Shown here piece by piece: positions 4,612-22,807 of a DNA stretch of 64,000 nt. The stretch comes from Streptomyces mirabilis (GTDB taxonomy: Bacteria > Actinomycetota > Actinomycetes > Streptomycetales > Streptomycetaceae), in contig NZ_JBCJKP010000001.1 of NCBI RefSeq assembly GCF_039503195.1, positions 4,960,001 to 5,024,000 of the forward strand, in the 5' to 3' direction. The notes beneath the pieces were generated by a model. The model searched no databases. It saw only the letters and a list, made by a program, of their open reading frames with translations, and was not told the origin of the DNA. The position numbers and the translations under genes are program-made. The number at the start of each line of letters is the position of its first letter. Positions within the stretch are counted from its first letter, which is position 1.

Positions 4612-6120
4612 GTGAGCGCCACCCGATCAGGTGAACGCGGCGCCCCTGGAACCTCCGAAGGCGCCGACTCCCGCCGCTGGTGGGGCCTGGTGATCATCGC
4701 CCTCGCGCAGCTGATGGTCGTCCTCGACGCGACCATAGTGAACATCGCGCTTCCCTCCGCACAGCGCGCCCTGGGCATGTCCGACGGCAACCGGCAGTGG
4801 GTCATCACCGCGTACACGCTGGCCTTCGGTGGTCTCCTGCTGCTCGGCGGCCGGATCGCGGACCTCGTCGGCCGCAGACGCACCTTCGTCTTCGGCCTCA
4901 TCGGCTTCGCGGCCGCCTCCGCGATCGGCGGCGCGGCGGGCAACTCCGCCATGCTCTACGGCGCCCGCGCTCTCCAAGGCGCCTTCGCCGCCGTCCTGGC
5001 CCCCTCCGCGCTCAGCCTGCTGACCACCACCTTCACCCAACCCAAGGAGCGCGGAAAGGCCTTCGGCGTCTACAGCGCCCTCGCGGGCAGCGGCTCGGCG
5101 ATCGGACTCATCATGGGCGGGCTGCTGACCGAGTACCTGAACTGGCGCTGGTGCCTCTACGTCAACATCCCCATAGCCGTCATCGGGGTCTTCGGCGCGT
5201 TCGCGCTGCTGCCCGACCCCCCGGGCAACGCCCGCGCCCGGCTCGACATCCCCGGTGTGGTGCTCGGCTGCGGCGGACTGGTCACGATCGTCTACGGAGT
5301 CAGCGAGGCGGAGGCCCGCGGCTGGACGGACCCGCTGGTGCTGGCCCTCCTCGCGGGCGGAATCGTGCTGCTGACCGCGTTCGTGTACTGGCAGACGAGG
5401 GCCCCGGGCCCGCTGCTCCCGCTCCACATCATCGAGGACCGCACGCGCGCGGGCTGCTTCCTGACGATGGCCCTCGCCGTCATCGGCATGTTCGGCATTT
5501 TCCTGTTCATGACCTACTACCTGCAGGTCGTCCTCGGATACTCGCCCGTGGGGGCGGGCCTGGCCTTCCTGCCCATGACGGCCGCGATCGTCATCTGTAC
5601 GACGCAGATCTCGGCGCGGCTGCTGCGCCGCGTGGCACCGCGCGTGCTGATGGTCCCCGGAGCGCTCCTCGCGGCGTCCGGGATGCTGTTCTTCACCCGC
5701 CTCACGGTCGACGCCGACTACGCGGGCCGGCTGCTGCCCGGTCTGATCCTGATGGGCCTCGGCATGGGCCTGATCTTCATGCCGGTCTTCGCCACCGCCA
5801 CCGCCGGGGTCGCCCCACAGGATTCCGGCGTGACCTCCGCGACCGTCAACACCTCACAGCAGGTGGGCGGTTCGATCGGTACGGCCCTGCTGAACACCAT
5901 CGCCACCACCAGCGGCGCGGCGTACATCGCCGCGCACCTCACCGACCCCGCCCGGAAAGCCCTGATCGTCCGCGAGGGCGTCGTGCACGGCTACACGGTC
6001 GCCATCTGGTGGGCCGCCGGAATCATGCTCCTGGCCGGTCTGGTCGCGGGCCTCATGGTCACCGCGAGGACCCCCAGACACGCGACCGCACCGGCCCCCG
6101 TGCCCGAGTCAGTCCCCTGA
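4612..6120 (+). CDS. MFS transporter, DHA2 (EmrB/QacA-like) drug exporter
   Basis: A 502-residue integral membrane protein with about 14 hydrophobic segments. It carries the family signature LDATIVNIALPSAQ near residues 39-52 and a motif-A loop GGRIADLVGRRRTF. The layout is that of 14-TM proton-coupled drug exporters. The GTG start at 4612 lies 57 bp after the oxidoreductase stop on the same strand, so the pair may be co-transcribed from the SoxR-type promoter. Reduction plus export of redox-active molecules would be a sensible pairing (inference). Its stop overlaps the convergent GNAT gene by 12 bp. Confidence 0.9.
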   Translation: MSATRSGERGAPGTSEGADSRRWWGLVIIALAQLMVVLDATIVNIALPSAQRALGMSDGNRQWVITAYTLAFGGLLLLGGRIADLVGRRRTFVFGLIGFAAASAIGGAAGNSAMLYGARALQGAFAAVLAPSALSLLTTTFTQPKERGKAFGVYSALAGSGSAIGLIMGGLLTEYLNWRWCLYVNIPIAVIGVFGAFALLPDPPGNARARLDIPGVVLGCGGLVTIVYGVSEAEARGWTDPLVLALLAGGIVLLTAFVYWQTRAPGPLLPLHIIEDRTRAGCFLTMALAVIGMFGIFLFMTYYLQVVLGYSPVGAGLAFLPMTAAIVICTTQISARLLRRVAPRVLMVPGALLAASGMLFFTRLTVDADYAGRLLPGLILMGLGMGLIFMPVFATATAGVAPQDSGVTSATVNTSQQVGGSIGTALLNTIATTSGAAYIAAHLTDPARKALIVREGVVHGYTVAIWWAAGIMLLAGLVAGLMVTARTPRHATAPAPVPESVP

Positions 6121-8069: not shown

Positions 8070-8723
8070 TTAACCCCTGAGGGTGGCCAGTGTCTCCTTC
8101 GGATTCCATGCTTTTCCGCGGCCTCTGACCAGTGGATAGCAGCAGAGACCTATCAGGATCGATATGAAATGCCCGAAATCGGTGAAGGTGCGGCCGGTGA
8201 GCAGCGGCAGGCCGTAGACCGCGAGGATCACCACCAGATAGAGGTACCGCCACGGCACCGCGACGCGGTATGTCAGGACCCCTACGACGCCCGCCAGCGC
8301 ATAGCTCACCCCGATGTCCAGGGTGTCGACCGCCGAGTGCGGCGCCGCCCCGCGCTTGATCGCGCCCAGCAGCGCTCCCTCACTGATCAGTGTCGCCAGG
8401 ACGTGCGCGGCCACCGCGACCGCCAGCCAGCGCAGGGTGCCCAGCCAGCGTTCCGCCTGGGCGTGGAAAGCGGTGAACAGGACGGCGTACGGCAGCCAGA
8501 GACCGCCGTCGATCCACATCGCACTGGTGATCAGCACCCGTACGGGGTTGTCCGACAGCTCGTGGATGTTCGTGGACCGCTGGCGCAGGAAGTCCTCTTC
8601 GAAATCCGGAGACATGTGGTGCAGAGCCACTGTGCTGACGAAGAGGACCGCCAGCCACACGTAGGTGCCGGGGGCACTGCGTAGGTAGCTCCCGGCGCGG
8701 TGCAGGGCCCCGTCAACGCGCAT
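8070..8723 (-). CDS. rhomboid-like integral membrane protein
   Basis: A 217-residue membrane protein with about five or six hydrophobic segments, including YVWLAVLFVSTVALHHM, GGLWLPYAVLFTAFH and YLYLVVILAVYGLPLL. It resembles the rhomboid-like proteins common in Streptomyces, but I do not see the classical GxSG serine motif, so protease activity should not be assumed. ATG 8723 shares its region with the divergent phosphotransferase gene, whose likely GTG start is 35 bp away, so promoters overlap coding or leader sequence. It is followed closely by the FAD oxidoreductase. Confidence 0.8.
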   Translation of the reverse strand: MRVDGALHRAGSYLRSAPGTYVWLAVLFVSTVALHHMSPDFEEDFLRQRSTNIHELSDNPVRVLITSAMWIDGGLWLPYAVLFTAFHAQAERWLGTLRWLAVAVAAHVLATLISEGALLGAIKRGAAPHSAVDTLDIGVSYALAGVVGVLTYRVAVPWRYLYLVVILAVYGLPLLTGRTFTDFGHFISILIGLCCYPLVRGRGKAWNPKETLATLRG

Positions 8724-8757
8724 GGGCCGCCTCACCGCCGCACGTAGGCTCGGCTCC

Positions 8758-9723
8758 GTGATCGACGTTCCGGTGGGTCTGGCCGCCTCGCAGGACAAGT
8801 ACAACGGAGCGGCGGGGCGCGCCTTCGTCGCCGGGCTGCCCGAGCGGGCCGCGCACTTCCTGGCGCGCTGGGAGCTGCGTCTCGACGGCCCCTCCATGCA
8901 CGGTGTCACGGCGCTGGTCCTGCCGGTGCTGCGGGCCGACGGCAGCCCGGCCGTGCTCAAGCTCCAGCTCCTGGACGAGGAGAGCGCGGGTGAGCCGACC
9001 GCCCTGCGTGTCTGGGACGGTGGCGCGGCCGTACGCCTCCTCGCCCATGACGAGGCCACCTGCACCCTGCTGCTCGAACGGCTCGACCACACCCGCATGT
9101 TGACGCACCTCCCCGACACACGCGAGGCCGCCCTGGTCGTCGCGCGGCTGCTGGCCCGGCTGACGGCCGTGCCGGCGCCGGAGGGGATGCGGCGGCTCGG
9201 TGACATCGCGGCGGCCATGCTGGAGCGGGTGCCGGGGGCCCTGAAACTGATCGCGGACCCGGCCGAGCGTCGTCTCGTCGAGGACTGCGCGGCGGCGGTG
9301 CGCGAGGTGGCGACCGAGCCGGGTGACCGTCTCCTCCACTGGGACCTCCATTACGACAACGTCCTCCGGGACCTCCAGGACCTCCAGGACCCCGACGGTC
9401 TCCAGGTCCCCGACCGCCTCCAGGACGGGGGCGCCCGCTCCGTCGGCCGCGGGTCCTGGGTCGCCATTGACCCCAAGCCGCTCGCGGGCGACCCCGGCTT
9501 CGACCTCTGCCCGGCGCTCGGCAACCGCTTCGAGCCCGCCGAGATCCGCTGGCGCTTCGACGCGATGACCGACGTCATGGGCCTGGATCGCGAGCGGGCC
9601 CGTGCCTGGACCCTCGGCCGTGTCCTACAGAACACTCTGTGGGAAATCGAGGACGGCCGCCCGCTGGAGGCGGTCCAGCTGGAGATCGCGCGTCGGCTGC
9701 GGGGCACCCCGCGCGAGGCCTGA
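8758..9723 (+). CDS. aminoglycoside/streptomycin 6-kinase-like phosphotransferase
   Basis: A 321-residue kinase-fold protein of the aminoglycoside/hydroxyurea phosphotransferase group. AVLKLQLLDEES holds the probable ATP-binding Lys (residue 68), HWDLHYDN (194-201) is the catalytic loop with its Asp, and AIDPKPLAGDPGFDL carries the metal-binding Asp. GTG 8758 is preferred because the protein then starts near IDVPVGLAASQ, the conserved family start; an ATG at 8722 is also possible. An odd insertion of LQD repeats separates the catalytic loop from the DPKP motif. The substrate is unknown and could be an antibiotic or a metabolite. Confidence 0.85.
   Translation: MIDVPVGLAASQDKYNGAAGRAFVAGLPERAAHFLARWELRLDGPSMHGVTALVLPVLRADGSPAVLKLQLLDEESAGEPTALRVWDGGAAVRLLAHDEATCTLLLERLDHTRMLTHLPDTREAALVVARLLARLTAVPAPEGMRRLGDIAAAMLERVPGALKLIADPAERRLVEDCAAAVREVATEPGDRLLHWDLHYDNVLRDLQDLQDPDGLQVPDRLQDGGARSVGRGSWVAIDPKPLAGDPGFDLCPALGNRFEPAEIRWRFDAMTDVMGLDRERARAWTLGRVLQNTLWEIEDGRPLEAVQLEIARRLRGTPREA
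9368..9426 (+). repeat. in-frame CTCCAGGAC-type repeats inside the kinase gene
   Basis: Short direct repeats of CCTCCAGGAC and the variant TCTCCAGGTC encode LRDLQDLQDPDGLQVPDRLQ, between the catalytic loop and the metal-binding motif. Repeat length keeps the frame, so copy number could vary without breaking the protein. Confidence 0.7.
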
Positions 9724-9762: not shown

Positions 9763-11535
9763 CTAAAAGGGTCGCCCTTCGGCTCGGGCCCCGTTCGCGA
9801 GGGCGCGCCCCAGTGCCAGTGGATCGGCCTGTCCGTCCAGTTCGCCGTGCAGGGCCATCGCCAGTTCCGGGCGGGCCAGCAGACCGTCTCCCGCCGGGTC
9901 TCCGGCGGCCCGTGCCGCGAGGCCGAGCCCCACCCAGGTCTCGGGGTCGCCGTCGCCGCGGCCGATGCGCGCACGGAACGCGCCCAGGGCCTCGGCGGTG
10001 CGGCCTTCCACCAGCGCGATGTCCTCGAGGCGCGCTCCGGCGACCACCGCGCCGGGGTCCTCCCGCAGCGCCGCGAAGCCCGCGGGGTCCGCCAGCAGCC
10101 ATCGCAGCAGCACCGCCCGGGTGTCGATGCCCCGCGCCGGACTGCCCGGGACGGGCACGGCCTCGGGCTCGTCCGTCGTCCTGGGCAGCGGGTTTCCGGC
10201 GGCCCAGGCTGTCGCGTGGGCGCGGAGGATCCCCGGCTCGGGCCGCAGATGGCAGGCGCGCCAGGTGGCACGGTGGTCGGCGACCGCCAGGGCCGCCGCG
10301 GTCCGGACCCGGGCGTCGACCGGTTCGTCGAGCCAGGGTTCGAGGCGCCGCGTCAGCTCGGCCACCAGCCGCCGTCCCAGATCGTTGAGCCCGTCCGCCG
10401 ATCCGACGGCGCGCAGCGCGTACGCGGTCTGGCTGCGCCACAGCGCGAACTCGAACTGTCCGAGGGCGTGGCCGCGCCGCCGCCAGAACGCGGTGACGCC
10501 GAAGAAGGCGTACACGCCCTGGAGCAGCCCACCCAGGGGACGGGGGTCGTCGCGCCAGGGGGCGTAGTGGAGCCGGGTGCCCTGGTCTTCGTACAGGGTG
10601 AACAGGTGCATGAACGCGCTGAGCTTGTTGTGCTGGAACTCGTGCACCAGCGTCGAGGCGAACTGCTCGGCGTCGTCCGGGGCCGATGCCAGGGCGGTGC
10701 CGAAGGCGTCGCCCGAGGACGCGCTGTGCGGCCGGAACCTCTCGGCGCGCGGACGGGGCACCACCGACACCAGCCCGCCGGCCAGCGCCTCGGCCACCTC
10801 GGTGTCGGTGCGCCGCAGGATGTCCCAGGCGGGGCCGAACAGTTCCTGCCACTCGGCGGTGGAGTCGATCGGTTCCACCCCGGCCGGTCCGCGCAGGTCG
10901 CGGTAGGGGTCGGTGTCGTCCAGAAGCAGGGTGCAGCCGTCGGCGCGCAGCTCGGTCAGGGCATGCCAGTCCGGCCCCCCGAGTGGGCGCCCGGCGATCC
11001 GCACGGATCCCGCGAAGGCGCCGACCTCGGCCACGTCCCAGTCCGCCCGGCCGGGCACCCGCATCGCCCCGAGCGCGGGCAGGACCACCCAGCCGTGGCG
11101 GACCGGGACGTCGGTACGGAACTCCAGGCCGACGCGGACGGCCGCTGCGGCGGCGATCGCGTGGAGGTGCCCGGTGTCCGCCCAGAGGGGTGCGTCGTCC
11201 TGGGCGGTCCCGCGCAGCCGACGCAGCGTGTGCGCCGCCCACACGCCCACGGCCGGATACCCCAGCAGGTCTTCCGCCGCCTCCTTGGACACGGCCCAGG
11301 CACGCGACAGCAACTTCCAGCCGTCGGCCAAGGGGGGCAGGGGGCCTGCCGGTGCCGTCGCGGCCGAGTCCAGCAGGGCCCGGACGACGAGCAGCCGCCA
11401 GCTCCGCTCGCTCGCACGCAGGCGGTCCACCGTCGCGGGTCCGCCCCCACCGCACAGCAGTTCGTCGAACGACCGCGACGGCAGGGCGTGTGGCAGAACG
11501 TGGGGCAGGACGTGGGACCGGTCCGTCTGGTGCAC
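9763..11535 (-). CDS. HExxH-type peptide beta-hydroxylase-like protein (copy 1)
   Basis: A 590-residue protein of the mod_HExxH group that accompanies FxSxx-COOH peptide systems; databases now call members aKG-HExxH-type peptide beta-hydroxylases. The motif LVHEFQHNKLSAFMHL sits at about residues 296-311 (HEFQH 298-302), preceded by RFRPHSASSGDAFG and followed by YAPWRDDPRPLGGLLQGVYAF. Copy 2 at 13656 conserves all of these. GTG 11535 is chosen because it starts nine bases after the precursor stop and aligns with the N-terminus of copy 2; no clear Shine-Dalgarno is seen, so translation is probably coupled. It should modify the peptide encoded at 11547. The C-terminal third looks helical and TPR-like. 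Confidence 0.85.
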   Translation of the reverse strand: MHQTDRSHVLPHVLPHALPSRSFDELLCGGGGPATVDRLRASERSWRLLVVRALLDSAATAPAGPLPPLADGWKLLSRAWAVSKEAAEDLLGYPAVGVWAAHTLRRLRGTAQDDAPLWADTGHLHAIAAAAAVRVGLEFRTDVPVRHGWVVLPALGAMRVPGRADWDVAEVGAFAGSVRIAGRPLGGPDWHALTELRADGCTLLLDDTDPYRDLRGPAGVEPIDSTAEWQELFGPAWDILRRTDTEVAEALAGGLVSVVPRPRAERFRPHSASSGDAFGTALASAPDDAEQFASTLVHEFQHNKLSAFMHLFTLYEDQGTRLHYAPWRDDPRPLGGLLQGVYAFFGVTAFWRRRGHALGQFEFALWRSQTAYALRAVGSADGLNDLGRRLVAELTRRLEPWLDEPVDARVRTAAALAVADHRATWRACHLRPEPGILRAHATAWAAGNPLPRTTDEPEAVPVPGSPARGIDTRAVLLRWLLADPAGFAALREDPGAVVAGARLEDIALVEGRTAEALGAFRARIGRGDGDPETWVGLGLAARAAGDPAGDGLLARPELAMALHGELDGQADPLALGRALANGARAEGRPF

Positions 11536-11546
11536 CTCTCGCGCCG

Positions 11547-11717
11547 CTACGCGTCGCGCTGCGGGTTGTAGCCGCCGAGGCTGCTCGCGGGGTCGTCGAT
11601 ACGGCTGAGCAGCCGGCGCATGGAGCCCTGCGCGGACGGCAGGTCCAGCTGGGGCCACGCGTCCAGCGGAACGTCGCTGAGGTCGATCAGCTCGGACTCG
11701 ACTCCGGACTTCTCCAT
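11547..11717 (-). CDS. FxsA-like RiPP precursor peptide A
   Basis: A 56-residue peptide. ATG 11717 follows AGGGG with seven bases between; an in-frame start at 11768 adds 17 residues of poor quality. The leader-like part ELIDLSDVPLDAWPQLD resembles the 'LVDLAGVSLETLRSID' leader of peptide B and of FxSxx-COOH peptides generally. The C-terminal part is RIDDPASSLGGYNPQRDA. It is not a canonical FxSxx terminus but shares the (I)D-x-P and GG-containing layout of peptide B. It lies directly upstream of its own HExxH protein, so it is the probable substrate. Confidence 0.75.
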   Translation of the reverse strand: MEKSGVESELIDLSDVPLDAWPQLDLPSAQGSMRRLLSRIDDPASSLGGYNPQRDA

Positions 11718-11911
11718 GGCGGCGCCCCTGTGACAGTGAGGTGATGCGAACAATGCCTTAGATATCACTGAATATGGCGTTTCCAGGGATTTCAGGCTAC
11801 TTGGGTGACCCTATTGCATCAACGCCGTCACGCAGGGCCACAGCGCGGAATCGGCCCGGATCGGGTGACGGAGGGGCGGTGGGAGCACGCGCGGTGGGGT
11901 AGGGACCGGGT
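11718..11911. other. divergent promoter region, peptide A / trypco2
   Basis: This 194-bp AT-richer spacer separates the leftward peptide A operon from the rightward trypco2-trypsin operon. It contains an AT-rich stretch around 11757-11780 (TTAGATATCACTGAATATGG) suited to promoter -10 regions. I could not assign paired -35/-10 boxes with confidence. Confidence 0.4.
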
Positions 11912-12214
11912 GTGATTGAACTCGCTGAACTGATCGAGGAGTTGCGCAGGGAACTGACCGCGGCCCGGACGGCCGCGGAGGGGGAGGATCTGTACTTCGA
12001 GGTGGGTCCGGTGGAGCTGGAGGCGGCCGTGGTCGTGGAGCGGTCGGCGACGGCGGGCGGCAAGATCCGCTTCTGGGTGGTGGAGGCGGGGGCGGACGGA
12101 CGGGTGGCGGACAGCGTCACGCACCGGGTGAAGCTGACGCTCGACCCGCGCACCCATAGCGGCGGCGGACGGGCCCCGTGGGTGGGCGGGGCCGAGGCCG
12201 AACGAGAGCGCTGA
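11912..12214 (+). CDS. trypco2 family protein (trypsin-co-occurring domain)
   Basis: A 100-residue protein starting MIELAELIEELRRELTAA (GTG 11912). The pattern of an acidic helix, then YFEVGPVELEAAVVVER and KIRFWVVEAG, is the trypsin-co-occurring domain 2 known from actinobacterial conflict systems. Such domains accompany trypsin-like proteases and are thought to regulate or recruit them. The next gene starts three bases after its stop and encodes exactly such a protease, so the two are translationally coupled partners. Confidence 0.85.
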   Translation: MIELAELIEELRRELTAARTAAEGEDLYFEVGPVELEAAVVVERSATAGGKIRFWVVEAGADGRVADSVTHRVKLTLDPRTHSGGGRAPWVGGAEAERER

Positions 12215-12217
12215 GCC

Positions 12218-13332
12218 GTGGCGGCACAGGATCCGCGCCGCGGACTGGATCCGCTCCGGGTGGCGGAGGTGATGGTGCGACCGCTCGCGGGGCGGGGCCC
12301 CGGACGGCGCGGTTCCGGCTACCGGGTGGGTCCCTGGTGGGTGCTCACCGCCGCACACGTCGTCCGCGACGCGAGAACGGGAGCCACCGACGTACGGTTC
12401 GAGGCCGACCGCGCCGACGAGTGGACCGTGGCCGCCCGGGTGGTGCTGGCCTCGGAGCAGGCCGACGTGGCGCTCCTGGAGCTGGACGGATCCGCGCCGC
12501 ACGGCGTCCACGCGGCCGTGACCGAACCCCCCTCGTACGGGGCCGTGCCCGACGCGGACCTCGTCCTGCCGTGCAGCGCGATGGGCTTCCCCGGTTCAAG
12601 CTGCGCGAGGACCGGATGCGACGGCTCGACGACGGCTCGGCGTCCCAGTACCGCGACTCCTGCCACGCGACGGGCATGACCTCGGTGCTGTCCAACCGCC
12701 GCGAAGGCACGCTCGAACTCGCCGTCACCCCGCCCGAGTCGGACGCCGAGCCCGACCGGTCGCCCTGGGAGGGCATGTCGGGCGCGGCGGTCTGGCACGA
12801 CGACGCGATCGTCGGCCTGGTCAGCGCGCACCACCGCACGGACGGTCTCGGCCGCCTCGCCGCCGTCCGCGTGGACCGCTGGTACGAGCTGTTGACCAGG
12901 TCCGAACTGGCCCTGCTGCACGAGTGCGCCGGCCTGCCCGCGTCGGCGCCCGAGCTGCCCCGCATCCCGTCCGCGCCGACCGCCGCCGCGGGCCCGGTCA
13001 CCCTGGCCGACCTGCGCGACGACCTGCCGCTGCGCGAACTCGACGGCTTGGTGGGCGCGTTGACGGCACTGCCCACGGTGAGCGACCGCACCACCCTGGC
13101 CCTGGTCCTGGGCAGCATCAACCCGGCCGTCGCGGCCATGAGTCCGAGGACACCGGCACTGAGACCGGACGTGTTCGGAATCCTGCGGACCTGCCTGCGC
13201 TACCCGGGGACCTTGGACCAACTCCTCGAAGCGATACGGTTGATGGAGGGCGACTCCGCCGGGGTGGCCCGCATGGACGAAGAGGCGGTGGAGTTGTCCC
13301 GGCGCCACCGTCGAGCCGATGAGAGCCGCTGA
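12218..13332 (+). pseudogene. trypsin-like protease with C-terminal EAD2, split by a frameshift
   Basis: Serine protease whose frame changes at 12589-12592. Frame one (GTG 12218) carries VGPWWVLTAAHVVRD with catalytic His47 and QADVALLELD with Asp83. It then runs out of homology after AMGFP. The next frame continues FKLREDRMRRLDDGSA and carries GMSGAAVW with the catalytic Ser, ending at 13332. Adding one C to the run CCCC restores one frame of about 371 residues. The C-terminal part (about 13000-13290, PVTLADLRDDLP to LRTCLRYPGTLDQLLEAIRLMEGDS) matches effector-associated domain 2 and resembles the N-terminus of the VMAP protein at 19773. The catalytic triad is complete, so a consensus error is more likely than decay. 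Confidence 0.85.
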
Positions 13333-13452
13333 CCTGATATCGCGCCGCCCCGAGGGCGCGGGGTTTCATCCTCCGCGCAGCGGGCCATTATCAGGGGGAT
13401 GTGAGCAGCCCGCATCCACAAACGCAGCCGGGGGGGAAGGGGTTTGGCCGTC

Positions 13453-13638
13453 ATGGAGCCGTCTGTGGCCGCCGTCGAGTCCAGCCTGGTCGATCTCGCG
13501 GGGGTATCTCTTGAAACGCTGCGCTCCATTGACCGCCAGGTGCTCGCCGCGTCGCTGGAGGAACTGCAGCAGGGGATCGACCGACCGCTGGCCAGTGTCA
13601 GCACTTTCGAAGGCGGAAACGCGGAGCGGTTCGACTGA
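13453..13638 (+). CDS. FxsA-like RiPP precursor peptide B
   Basis: A 61-residue peptide. ATG 13453 lies about ten bases after a strong GGGGAAGGGG ribosome site; a TTG at 13444 is too close to that site. LVDLAGVSLETLRSIDRQVL is the leader-like segment conserved in FxSxx-COOH peptides. The C-terminus is IDRPLASVSTFEGGNAERFD, in which STFEGG resembles the FxSxx region but extends further. The HExxH copy 2 gene starts 17 bases downstream, so the pair is an operon. Shared layout with peptide A: leader, (I)D-x-P, Ser-rich spacer, GG-Asn-x(2-3)-Arg tail. Confidence 0.8.
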   Translation: MEPSVAAVESSLVDLAGVSLETLRSIDRQVLAASLEELQQGIDRPLASVSTFEGGNAERFD

Positions 13639-13655
13639 GGCCGCCGGGGCTGCCC

Positions 13656-15476
13656 ATGCGCGCTGAGCCAACGCTGCCGCATCATCGCCTGCCGCCCGAC
13701 AGTCTGACCGAACTGGCCGGTGGCGAGGGGGGCCCGGACACCCTCGGCCTCCTGCTCGGGGCCGAACACAGCCGCCGTCTGCTGCTGTTGCGGATCCTCG
13801 ACGACGCCACGGACCTCGGTCCCGCCTGGGACCTGCTCATCAAGGCGCAGCGCCGCGCCCCCCACGTCGTCGACGAGCTGCTCATGTATCCGCAGACGGG
13901 CATGTGGCTGGCCACCGCGCTGCGCAGGCTGCGCGGGACGTCACCGCAGGACGAGCCACCCCCGTGGGTGGTGCTCGGCCATGTCGCGGCACTCGCCGCC
14001 GCGGCAGCGCTACGCGCGGAGCTCGACTTCACCATCGAGGTGCCGGTGCGGCACGGCAGGGTGCCGTTGCCGACGCTCGGCTGTGCGGTACTGCCCGTGG
14101 CCGAGCCCTGGACAACGGCCACGGTACGGGCCGAGGCCGGACGCGCCGTGGTCGAAACGTCCGGAGCCACGGTCGTCGTACCGGTCCCTCCCCACTCGGC
14201 GGGACCTGGATGGCATCCGGTGCGCCGGCTCTCGGTCGGCCCGGACAAGCTGCAGCTGCAGGTGGCTCTGGACGACGTGGACCCGTACCGGACCTACCCG
14301 TGGCCGACCGAGCCGCGCCCGCTGTCCGAGGCGGCCGCGGCGCAGTGGCGGCACGTGCTGGAGCGGGCCTGGGAGGTGCTGCTGCGGGAGCAGCCCGGGA
14401 CGGCCGAGGCCATGCAACGGGGAGTTCTTTCCCTGAGCCCGACGCCGGCCAGGGAAAGGTTTCGGCCACGCAGCGTGACATCGGGGGACGCCTTCGGCGG
14501 CATCGAGGCCTCGGAGCCGGACGACGCCGTACAACTGGCCGTCACCCTCGTACACGAGTTCCAGCACACCAAACTGGGCGGCCTGTTGCATCTGACGCCG
14601 CTCCTGACCCACGACGCCGACGAAAGTACTGAGCTGTGGTACGCCCCCTGGCGGGACGATCCCCGGCCTCTCGAAGGGCTGCTCCAGGGCATCTACGCCT
14701 TCGCGGGGATCGCCGGCTTCTGGCACGCCCACCGGCGGGCCGCCGGGGCGCAGCAGGCCATGGCACACTTCGAGTTCGCGCTGTGGCGGACACATGTGGC
14801 AACGGCGATCGAGCAGATCCACCGCCATCCGCGCTTCACACCACTCGGCGGCGCCCTGCTGGACACCCTGCGCAACCGCTGCGCAGGGTGGCTGGAGGAA
14901 CCGGTGCCCGAGGAGCAACTGGCCCTGGCCCGCCTGTGCGCCGCCGACCATGTCGCCCGCTGGCGCACCCACCATCTGCGGCCCGCCGCAGCGGCGGTGG
15001 AGGAGACGGTACGCGCCTGGCTGGCCGAGGCGGACGGCCCGCCCGCCTCCTTGGCTGCTGAGCCCGAACTCGTCCCCGACCCGTCCGTCCGCTGGCTGGA
15101 CAGCCTGGCGATGCTCGTCCGCTACCACCTCAGCGGCACGGACGACGGCCGACCGTGGTCCGAAGCGCCCGAGAAGACCATGGCCAGAGTCACCGGAGCC
15201 CTCCCGGGCGACGCCCTGCTGGCGGCAGGCGACCCCACGGCAGCCCGGCACGCCTACGTGGCCCACTTGGCAGGGGAGCCCGGCCGGGCAGGAGCCTGGT
15301 CGGGCCTGGGCCACGCCCTCAAGGCAACGGCCGACGAACCGGCAGCGGCCCGCCTGCTGTGCCACTGGCCGGAACGGGCACGAGCGGTCCACGAGTCCCT
15401 GTTACGGTCAGCCGCCACCCCACCGAACCCCGTACGCCTGGCCACCTGGCTCGCGGTACCGATGGGCACCCGGTAA
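13656..15476 (+). CDS. HExxH-type peptide beta-hydroxylase-like protein (copy 2)
   Basis: A 606-residue paralogue of the copy at 9763. The key motif LVHEFQHTKLGGLLHL has HEFQH at 300-304. RFRPRSVTSGDAFGG precedes it and WYAPWRDDPRPLEGLLQGIYAF follows, as in copy 1. Family members are thought to be Fe(II)/2-oxoglutarate-dependent peptide side-chain hydroxylases, with the HExxH histidines as metal ligands (family knowledge, not shown here). The start ATG 13656 is 17 bases after peptide B. The stop lies inside a terminator-like hairpin shared with the convergent FxsT-like gene. No radical-SAM gene is present in the island. Confidence 0.87.
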   Translation: MRAEPTLPHHRLPPDSLTELAGGEGGPDTLGLLLGAEHSRRLLLLRILDDATDLGPAWDLLIKAQRRAPHVVDELLMYPQTGMWLATALRRLRGTSPQDEPPPWVVLGHVAALAAAAALRAELDFTIEVPVRHGRVPLPTLGCAVLPVAEPWTTATVRAEAGRAVVETSGATVVVPVPPHSAGPGWHPVRRLSVGPDKLQLQVALDDVDPYRTYPWPTEPRPLSEAAAAQWRHVLERAWEVLLREQPGTAEAMQRGVLSLSPTPARERFRPRSVTSGDAFGGIEASEPDDAVQLAVTLVHEFQHTKLGGLLHLTPLLTHDADESTELWYAPWRDDPRPLEGLLQGIYAFAGIAGFWHAHRRAAGAQQAMAHFEFALWRTHVATAIEQIHRHPRFTPLGGALLDTLRNRCAGWLEEPVPEEQLALARLCAADHVARWRTHHLRPAAAAVEETVRAWLAEADGPPASLAAEPELVPDPSVRWLDSLAMLVRYHLSGTDDGRPWSEAPEKTMARVTGALPGDALLAAGDPTAARHAYVAHLAGEPGRAGAWSGLGHALKATADEPAAARLLCHWPERARAVHESLLRSAATPPNPVRLATWLAVPMGTR

Positions 15477-15488
15477 CACCGGGTGCCC
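15464..15488. terminator. bidirectional terminator between HExxH copy 2 and FxsT-like gene
   Basis: Perfect inverted repeat GGGCACCCGGT / ACCGGGTGCCC (11-bp arms, 3-base loop) that overlaps the TAA stop of the HExxH gene. It sits between convergent genes and could terminate both; there is no U-tract. Confidence 0.6.
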
Positions 15489-15505
15489 CGCACGCCCCGC
15501 TCACC

Positions 15506-18500
15506 TCACAAGGGCATCGGATCGATGTCGCAGTTGGCCCGCTCCATCGCCCGAGTCTGCAACGTGGCCGGGTGAGGTGCAGGCTCGGCAGAGCGAAGCC
15601 GAGGTCCGTCCAGCACCCGCTCCATCCTCTCCAGGGTGGCCGCCCGCAGCGCCTCCCCGTCCGTCCTCTGGCCCACGGCGATACGGTCCAGCGAGAGGTT
15701 GGCCGCACACACCAGGGTCGTGGGGTGGTCCTCGCCCAGCTGGTCCTGGCACAGCTCCAGTGTCTTCTCACCCAGCTCGCGCGCCTTGTCCTCCAGCCCC
15801 AGCGCGCTCAGATCGCTCGCCAGATTGATCGCACAGGCCAGCGCGATCGGATGGCTCTCCCCGAGCCGCCCGGTCAGCGACTCCAGCGCCGTCTCGTCCA
15901 GCTGCCTCGCCTCCCGTACCCGTCCCAGCAGCCTCAGCGTCACCGCCAGGTCGATGTCGGCGGCCAGAGCGTGCGGGTGATCGGGCTGGAAAAGCTCACG
16001 GAACCGCCCGGACGCCTTCTCGCCCAGGTCACGAGCCCGCTCCAGCTCGCCGTTGTGCCGCAGCGCCACCGACAGGGTGAGGGAGGCCGTCAGGGACTCG
16101 GGGTGCGTGTCGCCGTACCGACGGGCGAACTGGTCGAACGCCTCGCGGGCCAGTTCCAGCGCGCCTTCGGGGTCGCCCTCCTTGCGGCATGCCTCACTGA
16201 GCTGCCGCACGGTCGCCAGGGTCGCGGGGTTGCCGGCCCCGAAGACCGTACGGAAACCGTCGACGACCGCCTGTTGCAGAGACCGCGCACCGACGTAGTC
16301 GCCGGTCTCACGCACGTCGACGGCGATGCTCGCCTCGGTGATCAGCGACTGCTGGTGGTCGCGGCCGAACAGCCGGGCCTTCAGGGCATGCGTGTGCTGG
16401 TCCAGTTCCAGCGCGCGCTGGAAATCACCGACCAGCCGCAGGCTCACCCCGAGGTTGTGGGCGGTGACCAGCGTGGTGGGATCGTCCTCGCCGAAGGCAC
16501 GGCGAGCCCGGTCGTAGGCCGCCTCGTCCAGCTCGGCCCCGGCGGCGAAGTCCCCCTGGACGCGTCGCACGGCGGCTTCCAGGTTCAGGGTCTCCAGCGC
16601 GTCCTCGCGGGTGTCCTCCCGGTCCGCGGGCGCGGTGCGGGAGTAGACGTCCTTGAGCTGGGCCACGAGCTGGGAGGCGTCGTCGTAACGGCCCACCTTC
16701 AGATAGACGAAACTCAGCCACCACGCCATCAGCCGCGTCTGCTGGTCCTCCTCGCCGAACAGCCGCTGCCAGGTCTGCCAGGCCTGCTCCATGAACTCGC
16801 GCGCGACCTTGTGATCCCCCCAGTACCACAGGTACTTGGCGACGTTCATCACAAGCTCGCGCACCCACGGCTGGTCGGACTCGACGGCGCGCGACGCGAT
16901 GACATGGCCGTACAACTCCGCGTAGCGCGGCCAGTTTGCCGACTGGTTGGGCCCCTTGGGGTCGGAGGCGGCCAGAAGGGTGTGGGCCCCATTGCGCATG
17001 CGGTTCTGTTCCTCGGGGGTCATGCGGTTGATCAGCACGGCCTGGACCAGGCGGTGCATCTCGATCGAGTTGGTGCGGTGGTCAATGCGGGCGAGGGAGT
17101 AGCGGTTGATCTCCCGTATGGCGCGGGCGAGCCGCATGGGGTCGTTGAGGGCACGATCGAGTTCGGAGTCGATTCTGCTGCCGCCGAGGCCGGAGAAGAT
17201 CGAACGGGAGATGGGGTCCGGCGCGAAGTAGGAGCAGAGCTGGAGCAGGCGCAGGGCGGCCACGCTGCGCGTCTGCAGGTGATCGAGGGAGACGTTCCAC
17301 GCGGCCGCGACCGGAAGCTGGTAGTCCGGGGGCGGGGAGACCTCGAGGAGTTCACTGCGCTTGTCCTCGAACAGGCGCAGGTACTCCGACACCGGCATCC
17401 CGGTCTCCGCGCGCCATGCGGCGGCCTGTTCCAGGGCGAGCGGGAGGTCACCGAGGGCCTCGGCGAGGCGGTCCGCCTCGGCGTCGTCGAGGTCCCCGGG
17501 GGACCCCGAGCGGCGCAGCAGCTCCTTGCTTTCCTCCCGGGTGAAGACGTCGACCTCCAGGGAGGGGCCGACGACGCTCCAGCGCCGGTTGCGCGAGGTG
17601 ACGAGGATGGTGCCGCTGCCACCGGTGGGGAAGTAGTCACGGACGCGCTCGGGGCTGTCGGCGTTGTCGAAGATCAGCAGCCAGCGGGAGTACGGCCGCC
17701 CCTCGCGCAGCGCCTCACGCACCGCGGGACCGGCGATGTTGGCCTCGGGGCTGGTGCCGAGGCCGAGCCGCTGGGCGAGTTCCACCAGGGACTGGCCGAT
17801 CTGGCCGGGGCGCTCGGCGGGGATCCACCAGACGACGTCGTACTCGGACTGATGCCGGTAGGCGTACTCGATCGCCATCTGGGTCTTGCCGACACCGCCC
17901 ATGCCATGGATGGCCTCGGGCAGCACGGTGGTCGTGCCTTCCTGAAGGCGCTCCCGCAGTCGTTCCAGAAGGTCCACGCGGCCGGTGAAGTTCGGATTGC
18001 GCGGGGGGATGTTCCCCCAGATGCGCGGCTGCGTCGAGCGCGCGCGCTCCACCGCGGGCTGCTGCGTGGTCGCCATGGTCGTGGCTCCTTCTGAAGTTGT
18101 CTCGGGCCCCCTCGGGGCGTGTGCGGCATCCCGGTGGACCCGGGTGGCGGGGTCCTGGTGCCGCGTGTGGGTACGTGTGTCCTTGCCCAGGTTGACCGTG
18201 TTCTGCCGGTCGTACGCGCGCAGCGCCCGCGCGAGACGCTCGGCCTGGGGCAGGAAGCGTCCGGACAGGGCGCGCAGCGCGGCCAGTTCGATGCGCAGGA
18301 ACGCCACGTTCCGGGGGGTCACGGGCGACAGGCCGGTCGTCTCGACAAGTTCGTCCGCGGCGGGCAGCAACGGTTCGGAGCCCTCCGGGACCGCCATCAG
18401 CACCCGTACGTCGTGCAGCACGCGGATGGTGTCCCGGCGGCGGGCCAGCGCCAGTAACTCCTGGCGGATGTTCGGGCCGAAGGTGAAGACCACGTCGGCC

Positions 18501-19459
18501 GCGCGCTCGGCGTCCGCACCCGCGGGCCGCACCAGACCGCTCATCAGCAGCTCGGTGAGGTGGGCGGGCCCGGCACCCGGCACCGAGGCCGTCAGGGCGC
18601 TCATGACGGGCAGCGTCAGAGGAGCCGCCGCGAGGCGGGTCGCGAGCGCGAACGCGGTGGGCGAGGCGGCGGCCCGGAACTCCGACACGCGCTCCCACGG
18701 GGGTACGGCGCTGGCGGGGTCGGGCACGTCGTCGACCCAGGGCACGGCACGCGCGGCGTCCGGCCGCCGCTTCCAGTCGCGGGCCCGCACGCCCGACATC
18801 TCCACGCCCTCGGAGGCCCGGCCCGTCACCAGGTCGACCCAGCCGGTGAGGGAGTGGCCGGTCTGCTCCAGGACCGGGACGGGCACCACGCCGGCCCGTG
18901 CCGCCGTGGTGTCGTCCACAGGTTCGAGGGGTGAGGTGCGCAGCTCCCAACCCAGAGAGTCGTTGGGCGCCCAGGGGCGCCCGGAGCTCAGGCGCATGCG
19001 GTAGACGTCCAGGCCGGTACGGAACCAGAGCCGTTGGGGCAGCAGATGCAGGACCGCGAGCGGCTCGGAGCGGCCCAGTTCGCGCAGCAGCGGCAGCACC
19101 GCGTCCGAACGCCAGCCCGCGGCCAGCCCGTCGGTCAGCACCAGCACCACCCGGTGTTCGCCCACGGGCGGGGGAAGGTGCTCCAGCCGGATCCGGCCCG
19201 GCTCGGTGTCGTCCGAACTCAGCAGCCGTAAGCGGGTGATCGGGCCCAGTGACTCCTGGCGGCCGAGTTCGTCGGCCAGTCGGGTGACCGTCTCGTCCCA
19301 GACCCGCATGGTCACGTAGTCGTCGACCACGAGCAGTACGTCCGGGCGATCCGCGGAAGAAGCCTGCCCGAGGCCACGCAGGGCGCGCGACAGCACACCG
19401 AGTGACGCATCGTCAGACGGTGATGCCGATGGTGGTCGTGGACCGTCGTCACACTGCAT
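15506..19459 (-). CDS. FxsT-like SAV_2336-N / NB-ARC / TPR protein
   Basis: A 1317-residue multidomain protein. Residues 1-430 resemble the SAV_2336 N-terminal domain (DVLLVVDDYVTMRVWDETV, VVLVLTDGLAAGWRSD, YRMRLSSGRPW). A disordered Thr/Arg-rich linker (430-470) follows. Then comes an NB-ARC-type STAND NTPase: P-loop GMGGVGKT at about 518-525, LLIFDNAD Walker B, GSGTILVTSRNR. The C-terminal half is tetratricopeptide repeats of the NPATLATVRQLSEACRKEGD type. This is the FxSxx-COOH-system TPR protein layout. It probably senses or scaffolds through the TPRs and switches by nucleotide state. A strong internal ribosome site before ATG 18076 may produce the NB-ARC-TPR half alone. Confidence 0.85.
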   Translation of the reverse strand: MQCDDGPRPPSASPSDDASLGVLSRALRGLGQASSADRPDVLLVVDDYVTMRVWDETVTRLADELGRQESLGPITRLRLLSSDDTEPGRIRLEHLPPPVGEHRVVLVLTDGLAAGWRSDAVLPLLRELGRSEPLAVLHLLPQRLWFRTGLDVYRMRLSSGRPWAPNDSLGWELRTSPLEPVDDTTAARAGVVPVPVLEQTGHSLTGWVDLVTGRASEGVEMSGVRARDWKRRPDAARAVPWVDDVPDPASAVPPWERVSEFRAAASPTAFALATRLAAAPLTLPVMSALTASVPGAGPAHLTELLMSGLVRPAGADAERAADVVFTFGPNIRQELLALARRRDTIRVLHDVRVLMAVPEGSEPLLPAADELVETTGLSPVTPRNVAFLRIELAALRALSGRFLPQAERLARALRAYDRQNTVNLGKDTRTHTRHQDPATRVHRDAAHAPRGPETTSEGATTMATTQQPAVERARSTQPRIWGNIPPRNPNFTGRVDLLERLRERLQEGTTTVLPEAIHGMGGVGKTQMAIEYAYRHQSEYDVVWWIPAERPGQIGQSLVELAQRLGLGTSPEANIAGPAVREALREGRPYSRWLLIFDNADSPERVRDYFPTGGSGTILVTSRNRRWSVVGPSLEVDVFTREESKELLRRSGSPGDLDDAEADRLAEALGDLPLALEQAAAWRAETGMPVSEYLRLFEDKRSELLEVSPPPDYQLPVAAAWNVSLDHLQTRSVAALRLLQLCSYFAPDPISRSIFSGLGGSRIDSELDRALNDPMRLARAIREINRYSLARIDHRTNSIEMHRLVQAVLINRMTPEEQNRMRNGAHTLLAASDPKGPNQSANWPRYAELYGHVIASRAVESDQPWVRELVMNVAKYLWYWGDHKVAREFMEQAWQTWQRLFGEEDQQTRLMAWWLSFVYLKVGRYDDASQLVAQLKDVYSRTAPADREDTREDALETLNLEAAVRRVQGDFAAGAELDEAAYDRARRAFGEDDPTTLVTAHNLGVSLRLVGDFQRALELDQHTHALKARLFGRDHQQSLITEASIAVDVRETGDYVGARSLQQAVVDGFRTVFGAGNPATLATVRQLSEACRKEGDPEGALELAREAFDQFARRYGDTHPESLTASLTLSVALRHNGELERARDLGEKASGRFRELFQPDHPHALAADIDLAVTLRLLGRVREARQLDETALESLTGRLGESHPIALACAINLASDLSALGLEDKARELGEKTLELCQDQLGEDHPTTLVCAANLSLDRIAVGQRTDGEALRAATLERMERVLDGPRLRSAEPAPHPATLQTRAMERANCDIDPMPL
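18076..18091 (-). promoter_or_regulatory. internal Shine-Dalgarno and ATG for the NB-ARC-TPR half
   Basis: On the minus strand GAAGGAG (18091-18085) precedes ATG 18076 with eight bases between, in frame with the large gene. The product MATTQQPAVERARSTQ... would be 856 residues and contain the NB-ARC and TPR domains only. The codons just before it encode the poorly conserved Thr/His/Arg-rich linker. Confidence 0.6.
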
Positions 19460-19772
19460 AAGCGCCCTCAGAACGTCCGGTCATGCCCGACGACGGAGGG
19501 AGCACCGAGGAGGAGTCCCGCAGTCTGCGGGCATGCGTGACATCCACGTGCCAAGCCTGGCAGTGGTCTGCTTGCGGTGCAACATGGCAGGCCACAGGAG
19601 ACGGCAGAAGGGTCCGAAAGTCAATCGCCGGATGGTACTTGCCCCCTGTGGACAGCCGGTGGCTCTGTCTCGTCAATAGCGTGACAGTCGGCGATGGCGT
19701 GTGCAAGACCATGGGGTATCCGCCTCCGCCCGCCGGTCGGAGGCCCGTCCCGGGCCGTCGGGGCATGACGGC
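19460..19772 (-). other. upstream region of the FxsT-like gene
   Basis: This 313-bp stretch lies between the VMAP gene stop and the FxsT-like start. It is less GC-rich than its surroundings and contains minus-strand TTGACG and TTGACT hexamers that could be -35 boxes. I see no convincing matching -10 and no repeat or ORF with coding character. Confidence 0.35.
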
Positions 19773-21245
19773 CTACACCGGTCCGGGCGGACTCGGCTTG
19801 CGCTCGGGGTCGTCGAGCAGAATGGCCAGATGGCGACCCACGTGCCCGTCCCAGGCACCGGGGCCGAGGGCCAGCGCGTCCTTGCGCCACTCCCCGACCC
19901 GTTCCGCCAGGCTGCCCAGCCCCCGGTCCTGCAGAATCTCGCCGATGGCGTCCTGGAACTTCGGGTCCGCGCAGTCGCTGCGGTGCCAGATCATCGCGGG
20001 CACCCCGGCCCGCAGGCCGGCGAGGATCTCGCGGCGGCCGGTGCCCGAGTCGTCACCGGGGGGCTGACTGAGCACCAGGCACACCGCGTGCCGGTCCTCC
20101 TTCAGCTCACGCTCCAGGTGGAAGAAGTACGCCTCGTCCTCCGCCGGGCTGCTCCAGTGCGAGTGACTGTCCGCCGGACGCTCCCGCAACTGCCGCCACT
20201 TGTGGTGCCAGGGCCGGTGCCAGGCGGCCCGCTGCAGGCGCTCGATGCTGCGCACGACCACCGGATAGTCCATGACCAGCGGGGTCGGGGCCTCGGAGCC
20301 GGACTCCTTCGACCACCACTCCACCGGCTCGTTGAGCAGTTCCCAGGGCAGGATGAACTCGAGGATCACCGGCTGCCGCAGGTCGGCCCACTTCTCCTCG
20401 GCCTCCTCGATCAGCCGCTCCACCGCGCCCGGGAGTTCCTCCCGGCCCAGGTGGACCGTCTCGCCGCGCACGGGGTGCCAGCCCTCGGAGTCGGACTGGC
20501 GCCAGTGCGAGAGGTGGTACCGGTCCGTCTCGATCCGGTCCGGCTCGAACTGGATCATCAGATACGCGGGGACGAGGGAGGGCGCGGGCTGTGGAAAGTC
20601 CGAGTGCTGCCAGTCCGAGAGCAGTCCCTCCATGCCCAGAGAGAGGGCCTGGGTGCGGTTGAAGCGGCGCAGCACCTCGGCGGCGTCCGCCTGGCCGTCC
20701 TCCATCAGCCGGTCGGCCGACAGCGCCAGGAAGGCCATGCTGGGCGGGAGTTCACCCGCCGGGGAGTTCTCGCCCGCCAGCCGCAGGAAGACCTGCCACC
20801 CCGTCTGGCACCACCCGGGCAGCTCCTGGACGCGGGACCGGCTCGCGCGGCGCGCCATGACGGCCAGGTCCGTGGAGCCCATCGCCAGCAGGACGGGCCG
20901 CAGGTGAGCGAGATCGGCGTTGTTGAAGAAGTCGACGGCCTCCCACTCGTCCACGAGCGGCCACAGCTCGGCGACCGTCGCCGACTGCTGTTCCACGTAC
21001 TCCAGCGACCGCACCAGGCAGGCCAGGCCGTCACCGACGGCCGTGCACTCCTTCACCACCTGTAACAGCCACGGCCGCAGCCGATCACCGCCGAAGGGTT
21101 CCACGGGCGTGGCCAGTTCACCGGCCAGCAGATCCCGCCAGACCTCGCGGCTGCTCCCCTGGCTCACCGTGGCCGACCCCTGCAACGCGTCCACGATGGA
21201 GACAATGAGCTCGTTGCGGACCCGATCCGGACTGCGCCCTCTCAC
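19773..21245 (-). CDS. vWA-MoxR associated conflict system protein (EAD2 + VMAP-C)
   Basis: A 490-residue protein. GTG 21245 is chosen because GGAGG lies seven bases upstream (GGAGGTAACGGGGTG). Residues 10-95 (LIVSIVDALQGSATVS through LLQVVKECTAVGDGLACLVRSLEYVEQQ) look like the same effector-associated domain found at the C-terminus of the trypsin gene at 12218. The C-terminal half has VMAP-C features: ILEFILPWELLNEPVEWW, YPVVVRSIERLQRA and AMIWHRSDC. VMAP proteins act with MoxR ATPases and vWA proteins in predicted NTP-dependent defence systems; neither partner gene lies in this window. It reads away from tRNA-Thr. Confidence 0.85.
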   Translation of the reverse strand: MRGRSPDRVRNELIVSIVDALQGSATVSQGSSREVWRDLLAGELATPVEPFGGDRLRPWLLQVVKECTAVGDGLACLVRSLEYVEQQSATVAELWPLVDEWEAVDFFNNADLAHLRPVLLAMGSTDLAVMARRASRSRVQELPGWCQTGWQVFLRLAGENSPAGELPPSMAFLALSADRLMEDGQADAAEVLRRFNRTQALSLGMEGLLSDWQHSDFPQPAPSLVPAYLMIQFEPDRIETDRYHLSHWRQSDSEGWHPVRGETVHLGREELPGAVERLIEEAEEKWADLRQPVILEFILPWELLNEPVEWWSKESGSEAPTPLVMDYPVVVRSIERLQRAAWHRPWHHKWRQLRERPADSHSHWSSPAEDEAYFFHLERELKEDRHAVCLVLSQPPGDDSGTGRREILAGLRAGVPAMIWHRSDCADPKFQDAIGEILQDRGLGSLAERVGEWRKDALALGPGAWDGHVGRHLAILLDDPERKPSPPGPV

Positions 21246-21371
21246 CCCGTTACCTCCACACAGCTGGCGCGGCACCCTGATGGTGCCCAACAGGGTAAGG
21301 CCGTAAAGCGGGGCATGGCACGGAAAACCACGGGCCTCATCGCGGGATGCCCGTGTTGTTTGCGCTGTTGG

Positions 21372-21670: not shown

Positions 21671-22807
<1,137 letters not shown>

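Follow-up and report, generated by a model that had tools for sequence, protein, structure and literature searches.

Two pairs of hydroxylase-family HExxH proteins and small peptides at a VMAP/NB-ARC locus of Streptomyces mirabilis

Peptide modules that pair an HExxH protein with a small peptide have been described in loci that encode VMAP proteins (Kaur et al. 2020, PMC7159879). In the excerpts of that paper on which we draw, modules of the FxSxx type include a radical S-adenosylmethionine (SAM) enzyme, modules of the RxD or acidic types are presented with radical SAM unmentioned, and the HExxH protein is taken for a peptidase. Proteolysis was thus assumed in 2020; in biochemical work of 2025 and 2026, the characterized HExxH proteins of the family are oxygenases. 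ChlH, PflC, PosC, and PesO are reported as such, PflC/PosC and PesO being stand-alone enzymes, and the title of Protein Data Bank (PDB) entry 8s5f calls the ChlH domain an alpha-ketoglutarate-dependent oxygenase (literature drawn on in excerpts: PMC7159879, PMC12636437, PMC13060819, PMC12257519, PMC12707348, and PMC8195603). Here we describe a locus that joins both lines of work. It lies in a window of 64,000 nucleotides (bases 4960001-5024000 of the 11.1-Mb genome of Streptomyces mirabilis) and encodes two HExxH proteins, E1 and E2, each with its own precursor-like peptide, A1 or A2 (Table 1). On balance, we consider it probable that this is a two-pair, radical-SAM-free peptide-modification module in which leader-guided oxygenation near the peptide tail serves one VMAP/NB-ARC conflict-type locus.

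An earlier note on this DNA, made from its letters alone, had reported two HEFQH proteins of a hydroxylase family, each directly 3' of a gene for a 56- to 61-residue peptide. Coordinates, the family model, and a conserved peptide leader bear this out. Both proteins score well above the cut-off of 40 bits for TIGR04267 (aKG-HExxH-type peptide beta-hydroxylase, where aKG is alpha-ketoglutarate). Against NF040587, the model of an "inactivated" form with a cut-off of 225 bits, E1 and E2 reach only 85 and 121 bits, respectively, and HEFQH is intact in both. Identity between the two proteins is 41% in an alignment of 591 positions, and they have HExxHxK and APWRxDxRP in common, with the H, E, H, and K of the former motif invariant across 30 homologues. 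The predicted model of E2 has the same fold as SjiH (22ob/22nu) and ChlH (8s5f), and the E2 sequence also matches both. Membership of E1 and E2 in the aKG-HExxH peptide hydroxylase family is therefore well supported, and oxygenase chemistry is likely from these similarities. Relatives of E1 at E<=1e-120 were found in 6 of 295 genomes of the genus, the window's own included (69 to 76% identity in three, 56 to 57% in two). The nearest named relatives are from Streptomyces diastatochromogenes (96 to 97%) and S. olivochromogenes (94%). E1 starts with a GTG at about 11535, alternative longer starts reaching 11658.

The stop codon of A1 lies 11 bases upstream of the E1 GTG, and that of A2 lies 17 bases upstream of E2. 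We compared a set of 65 E proteins, drawn from the window and from 60 loci chosen among the listed matches as full-length and not fused to radical SAM, with shorter matches excluded. A peptide with the same leader is encoded upstream of 64 of the 65 genes, although the match at L104 looks spurious; the remaining gene, at L106, is without a peptide. A profile trained on 20 peptides of the E1 and E2 clades recovered, at E<0.01, 38 of the 45 peptides that had been held out and matched nothing else among 7505 open reading frames (ORFs) of 30 to 250 residues in 1.18 Mb. Conservation of the two small ORFs had been set beforehand as a check on which the earlier proposal could fail; the peptides are kept in relatives, and by this measure A1 and A2 are real genes.

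In a FastTree phylogeny of the 65 E proteins, E1 and E2 each belong to a well-supported clade of their own. The clades are well separated, and therefore the two pairs do not stem from a recent duplication; a recent tandem duplication of E1 and E2 was rejected on this ground. The class of peptide tail tracks the enzyme clade: GGYNPQRD accompanies E1, and mostly R-x-D accompanies E2 (exceptions, L036, L039, L047, and L048), while STIAGSDGS-like tails accompany a clade that includes a third paralogue in the window genome, at L050. In two other genomes (L053 and L054), pair 1 stands apart in a locus that has an FxsT and a VMAP to itself, and the tail is the same. The pairing of each enzyme with its own peptide is thus well supported, and the two parallel pairs proposed earlier are kept together in relatives. 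Among loci retrieved from named records, of which 24 (L136-L159) of 39 were analysed, 14 (L136-L149, all Streptomyces) have the two-pair arrangement; so do 4 of the 295 genus genomes, counting the window's. The two sets overlap, L140 being the L036 region of Streptomyces sp. F001. That strain also has a second, fragmentary two-pair copy (L153), with A1 and A2 identical to those of the main copy, which may be an assembly effect.

The A peptides have in common the leader VES-x-LVDLSGVSL..LR.. and were compared with peptides from 20 FxsA loci, 12 of which were read automatically, 6 per subtype. It is the FxsA subtype with LPDLSGLDLAALR that the A leader matches, at E 4e-8 by hhalign and at E 3.5e-9 to 4e-4 by hmmsearch; the 6 peptides of the second FxSxx subtype gave no match. 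Judged by these profile comparisons, the A leader is homologous to that of true FxSxx peptides in one of their two subtypes. The label "FxsA-like" given earlier to A1 and A2 thus holds for the leader and fails for the tail: neither peptide matches TIGR04268, and the FxSxx C terminus is absent from both. Given an FxSxx-type leader joined to a different tail, leader and tail behave as modules.

Tail counts were made on 63 peptides, after leaving out L104 and L106. R-x-[DE] stands at the extreme C terminus in 25 of the 63, versus 30 of 7442 other ORFs. Of these 25 peptides, 22 have a Pro no more than five residues ahead of the Arg, versus 11 of the 30 ORFs; in both counts the rows are related to one another, which makes any p-values too small. 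A1 ends in NPQRDA and A2 in ERFD. Several relatives of A1 end in QRDE; because A1 itself ends in QRDA, it fits the RxD class less exactly than A2. PesO is reported to hydroxylate a Pro directly before R-x-D-N, and the reported site of action of PflC is a C-terminal ARMD. By analogy, these two enzymes and the tail counts point to a common layout of a modified residue followed by R-x-D. Within the two-pair loci, the ratio of nonsynonymous to synonymous polymorphism (pN/pS) is 0.34 in the leader and 0.32 in the core of A1 (14 sequences), and 0.41 and 0.79 in those of A2 (15 sequences), all values without a significance test. The A1 tail, which has few changes across its 14 aligned sequences, would therefore be held, and the A2 tail would vary faster. 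Cys-containing tails (CVS, GSC, and NC) also occur, with enzyme clades of their own (L109-L112, L094, L096-L098, and L120).

The earlier note had also found no radical SAM enzyme near the pairs, and this holds for the operon and for the genome: FxsB (TIGR04269) is nowhere above the cut-off, the best score being 27.6 of the 370 bits needed, far away. The same model matches 182 of the 295 genus genomes at E<=1e-60, 179 of them over the cut-off. FxsC (TIGR04276) is likewise without a match in the window genome and matches 25 of 61 genus genomes; an FxSxx-tailed FxsA (TIGR04268) was not found among the short candidates scored in the window genome (150 of 786 or 96 of 491), and 27 of the 61 genomes have one. 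A module without radical SAM had been presented as unusual for this enzyme type, a view that is not supported: of the 60 chosen loci, one (L089) has FxsB in the fetched stretch, next to an ORF of the FxsA type, and RxD modules figure in the excerpted text of PMC7159879 with radical SAM unmentioned. Absence of radical SAM is therefore the rule for the full-length, stand-alone subgroup. The figure does not extend to the family at large, because radical SAM fusions and shorter matches were left out. By coordinates, FxsB has a separate HExxH gene as its immediate neighbour in at least 6 genus genomes (G094, G161, G180, G222, G223, and G229) and in L155, L156, L158, and L159, such relatives being shorter or more distant.

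The pairs were first taken for a free-standing, hydroxylase-only cassette for a ribosomally synthesized and post-translationally modified peptide (RiPP). That description gives way to another, since the locus also holds FxsT, VMAP, Trypco2, and a trypsin-EAD2 protein, which had gone unnoticed. With these four in the same island as both pairs, the locus is of the VMAP conflict type. The pairs are divergent, pair 1 on the minus strand and pair 2 on the plus strand, with Trypco2 and trypsin-EAD2 between them; FxsT lies downstream of E2 in convergent orientation, and VMAP comes next. EAD2 is present on both the trypsin-like protease and VMAP. An FxsT-type NB-ARC protein is encoded in 58 of the 60 chosen loci and VMAP in 51. 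FxsT also exceeds the cut-offs of NF041121 (216.9 bits, cut-off 200), PF00931, and PF13424. Its N terminus carries a SAV_2336 domain, the model of which has a predicted local distance difference test (pLDDT) value of 70 and no significant fold match.

Table 1. Features of the two-pair locus, in window coordinates
Feature	Coordinates	Strand	Evidence
APH(6)-like small-molecule kinase, candidate associated effector	8722..9723	+	PF04655, 106 bits; convergent with E1
E1 (pair 1), protein of the aKG-HExxH type, HEFQHNK	9763..11535	-	TIGR04267, 160 bits
A1, 56-residue precursor-like peptide, tail ...SSLGGYNPQRDA	11547..11717	-	Leader and position before E1
Trypco2, trypsin-co-occurring domain 2	11912..12214	+	PF19631, 104 bits (cut-off 24.2)
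Trypsin-like protease with C-terminal EAD2	12218..13332	+	PF13365, 37.8 bits; PF19956, 66.4 bits, other frame
A2, 61-residue precursor-like peptide, tail ...GGNAERFD (RxD type)	13453..13638	+	Leader and position before E2
E2 (pair 2), protein of the aKG-HExxH type, HEFQHTK, C-terminal TPR-like region	13656..15476	+	TIGR04267, 167 bits
FxsT: SAV_2336 N-terminal domain, NB-ARC, TPR repeats	15506..19459	-	NF040586, 872.6 bits (cut-off 300)
VMAP: EAD2, VMAP-M0, VMAP-C	19773..21290	-	PF19956, 61.5 bits; PF19916, 99.9 bits; PF20028, 185.1 bits; all above cut-off
Divergent tract: A2, E2, 3' TPR part of FxsT	13400..16100		Nucleotide identity versus L136/L147/L149

The only FxsT genes above the cut-off in the window genome are the one here and one at L050, and therefore both pairs here share a single FxsT. 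At L050 (C1:4661000-4680000), a third pair of HExxH protein and peptide is accompanied by an FxsT and a VMAP of its own, and the tail of the peptide is RPLSTIAGSDGS. A fourth HExxH protein of the same genome is a distant one (HEGAHLK, 57 bits); the small ORF that precedes its gene contains an acidic stretch (L005, C1:10664743-10668141). MoxR was judged by the sizes of the gaps between VMAP and FxsT together with Pfam matches. There is no MoxR gene between the two here (19459-19773), nor room for one, and the same is true of 13 related loci of the E2 clade; this negative covers the interval and not the rest of the genome. The gap is 317 bp here and 213 to 555 bp in those 13 loci, versus at least 1031 bp in 38 other loci that have both genes; of the wider gaps, all three that were tested gave AAA-type matches, one over the cut-off. 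The APH(6)-like kinase gene adjoins E1 in 8 of the 14 two-pair loci and also in L151, which together with L149 makes up one split locus. Aminoglycoside-kinase-like effectors are given for related ternary systems in the excerpts of PMC8195603.

Alleles of the locus differ along its length. Between the window and L136, L147, and L149, the genes for E1, the trypsin-like protease, and VMAP and the 5' part of FxsT are mostly 92 to 98% identical. E2 is only 82 to 83% identical and the 3' TPR part 83%, and there the other three are 94 to 98% identical to one another; in the A2 region, the window is 92% identical to the three, which are 99% identical among themselves. Two E2 alleles are filed under the name S. 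mirabilis, one (P0005) 98.2% identical to that of the window and the closest to it, and the other (P0006) 79.5% identical to it and 99.3% identical to the E2 of S. diastatochromogenes. From these identities, the divergent tract was probably exchanged by recombination. The joint divergence of A2, E2, and the TPR end may mean that the three are swapped together as a single unit of specificity; simple linkage accounts for it as well.

In the mechanism that we propose, the E proteins would be HExxH oxygenases that use Fe(II) and alpha-ketoglutarate. Each would bind its own A peptide by the conserved leader and oxidize a residue adjoining the Arg-x-Asp-like tail at the C terminus, often [P]-R-x-D. 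As to the site, our first guess is the Pro or Asn just before the tail and our second the Asp. Within the cell, FxsT, the NB-ARC/TPR protein, would then sense the modified or unmodified tail, and trypsin-EAD2 and VMAP-EAD2 would form a protease and adaptor arm. Cleavage by the trypsin-like protease at the conserved Arg was considered and dropped, since by eye the residue at what we take to be position six before the likely catalytic Ser is a Ser rather than an Asp. A more speculative extension, which we hold to be quite improbable, treats hydroxylation as a licensing mark on the A peptides through which the status of oxygen, iron, and alpha-ketoglutarate is reported. FxsT would then read the hydroxylated or the bare tail and decide on firing, by a logic that would parallel, in bacteria, the oxygen-dependent hydroxylation of HIF, with two peptides of different tempo (a constrained A1 and a fast-changing A2) acting on one receptor.

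Several findings weigh against the proposed modification module. The match between tail class and enzyme clade could be produced by co-inheritance of neighbours alone. Terminal R-x-[DE] is absent from 38 of the 63 peptides; A2 of the window has no Pro before its Arg (three close relatives have NPAERFD), and GVEAFD, NPSYDD, HTGLGN, TPERT, and GRLR tails also occur in the A2 group. In the ARMD of the PflC substrate, Ala alone is reported to be individually critical, and a leader-less substrate is reported to undergo hydrolytic cleavage by PflC. The fold search did not confirm a vWA identity for the FxsT N terminus, and PADLOC gave no matches for 6 proteins of the locus. Finally, the reading frame of trypsin-EAD2 is broken near 12600 in the window sequence (1115 aligned bases versus 1116 in three relatives), which may be a sequencing error.

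The hydrolytic reaction of PflC bears on the published reading of this module type (excerpts of PMC7159879), according to which E1 and E2 would be zincin metallopeptidases that cut the A peptides and release a C-terminal toxin or signal peptide. Because PflC hydrolyzes its leader-less substrate, the E proteins may have peptidase activity, and their HExxH motif is zincin-like; yet E2 matches ChlH and SjiH in predicted fold and sequence, and ChlH, PflC, PosC, and PesO are the reported oxygenases introduced above, the ChlH domain also by its PDB title. We regard a peptidase role as unlikely. The division of the A peptides into leader and core and the presence of a protease within the island would also suit a conventional secreted RiPP, in which the hydroxylated peptide loses its leader to the trypsin-like protease and the product is exported. 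This, too, seems improbable to us: no exporter was found among the island ORFs that were scanned (not every ORF was), and the transporter-like products that came up, one of the MFS (4612-6120) and one a MalK-type ATPase (21671-22807), are encoded outside the island. Moreover, the protease bears EAD2 as VMAP does, and the NB-ARC/TPR protein recurs in 58 of 60 loci.

A different question is whether the enzymes are specific at all. E1 and E2 have a domain in common and the leaders of A1 and A2 are similar, so the enzymes could be redundant, each acting on both peptides. Their separate clades, each with its own tail class even when the pairs are unlinked, argue against this, as does the report that PosA and PflA are each a poor substrate for the other's enzyme. 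We consider redundancy very unlikely and retain, as the probable reading, leader-guided oxygenation of each peptide by its own enzyme.

RxD-type peptide modules in VMAP loci were already known (Kaur et al. 2020, PMC7159879, as excerpted). What is new here is the presence of two ancient pairs on one FxsT and VMAP, the lack of MoxR between VMAP and FxsT, tail classes that track enzyme clades, A1 and A2 leaders that match one FxSxx subtype, and an A2-E2-TPR tract that was seemingly exchanged by recombination. No two-pair locus is named in the titles or abstract openings listed by searches of the literature, a set that does not cover the source data of Kaur et al. The locus is a compact test bed, offering two natural pairs of enzyme and peptide, a single receptor-like protein, and allelic variants that occur in nature, and it makes peptide hydroxylation testable as an internal defence signal. 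The alignable set of small precursors, whose tails track enzyme clade, should be useful for locating the modification site. If FxsT does read the mark, peptide hydroxylation would be a signal within a bacterial immune-type system.

The locus resembles the VMAP-ternary systems of the RxD type, as excerpted from PMC7159879, in having VMAP, an AP-ATPase/TPR protein, trypsin with Trypco, an HExxH protein, and a small peptide with an RxD-type tail. It differs from them in having two pairs per FxsT and VMAP and no MoxR gene between the two, and we read its enzymes as oxygenases rather than as the peptidases of the 2020 account. With the FxSxx-COOH systems (FxsA/FxsB/FxsC/FxsT) it shares an FxsT-type protein and a leader homologous to that of one FxsA subtype; unlike them, it belongs to a genome without FxsB or FxsC over the cut-off, and its peptides are without an FxSxx C terminus. 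Domain, HExxH motif, and predicted fold are those of ChlH (8s5f) and SjiH (22ob/22nu), which are aKG-HExxH domains of radical SAM proteins, whereas E2 is a stand-alone gene product with an extra C-terminal TPR-like region and no radical SAM partner. In being stand-alone enzymes with their own precursors, E1 and E2 are like PflC/PosC, PesO, and BpmH/BipH, and the reported substrates of PflC and PesO have R-x-D at or near the end, as A2 does. Those enzymes, however, are reported from biosynthetic clusters with MNIO enzymes, whereas E1 and E2 are encoded in a conflict-type locus.

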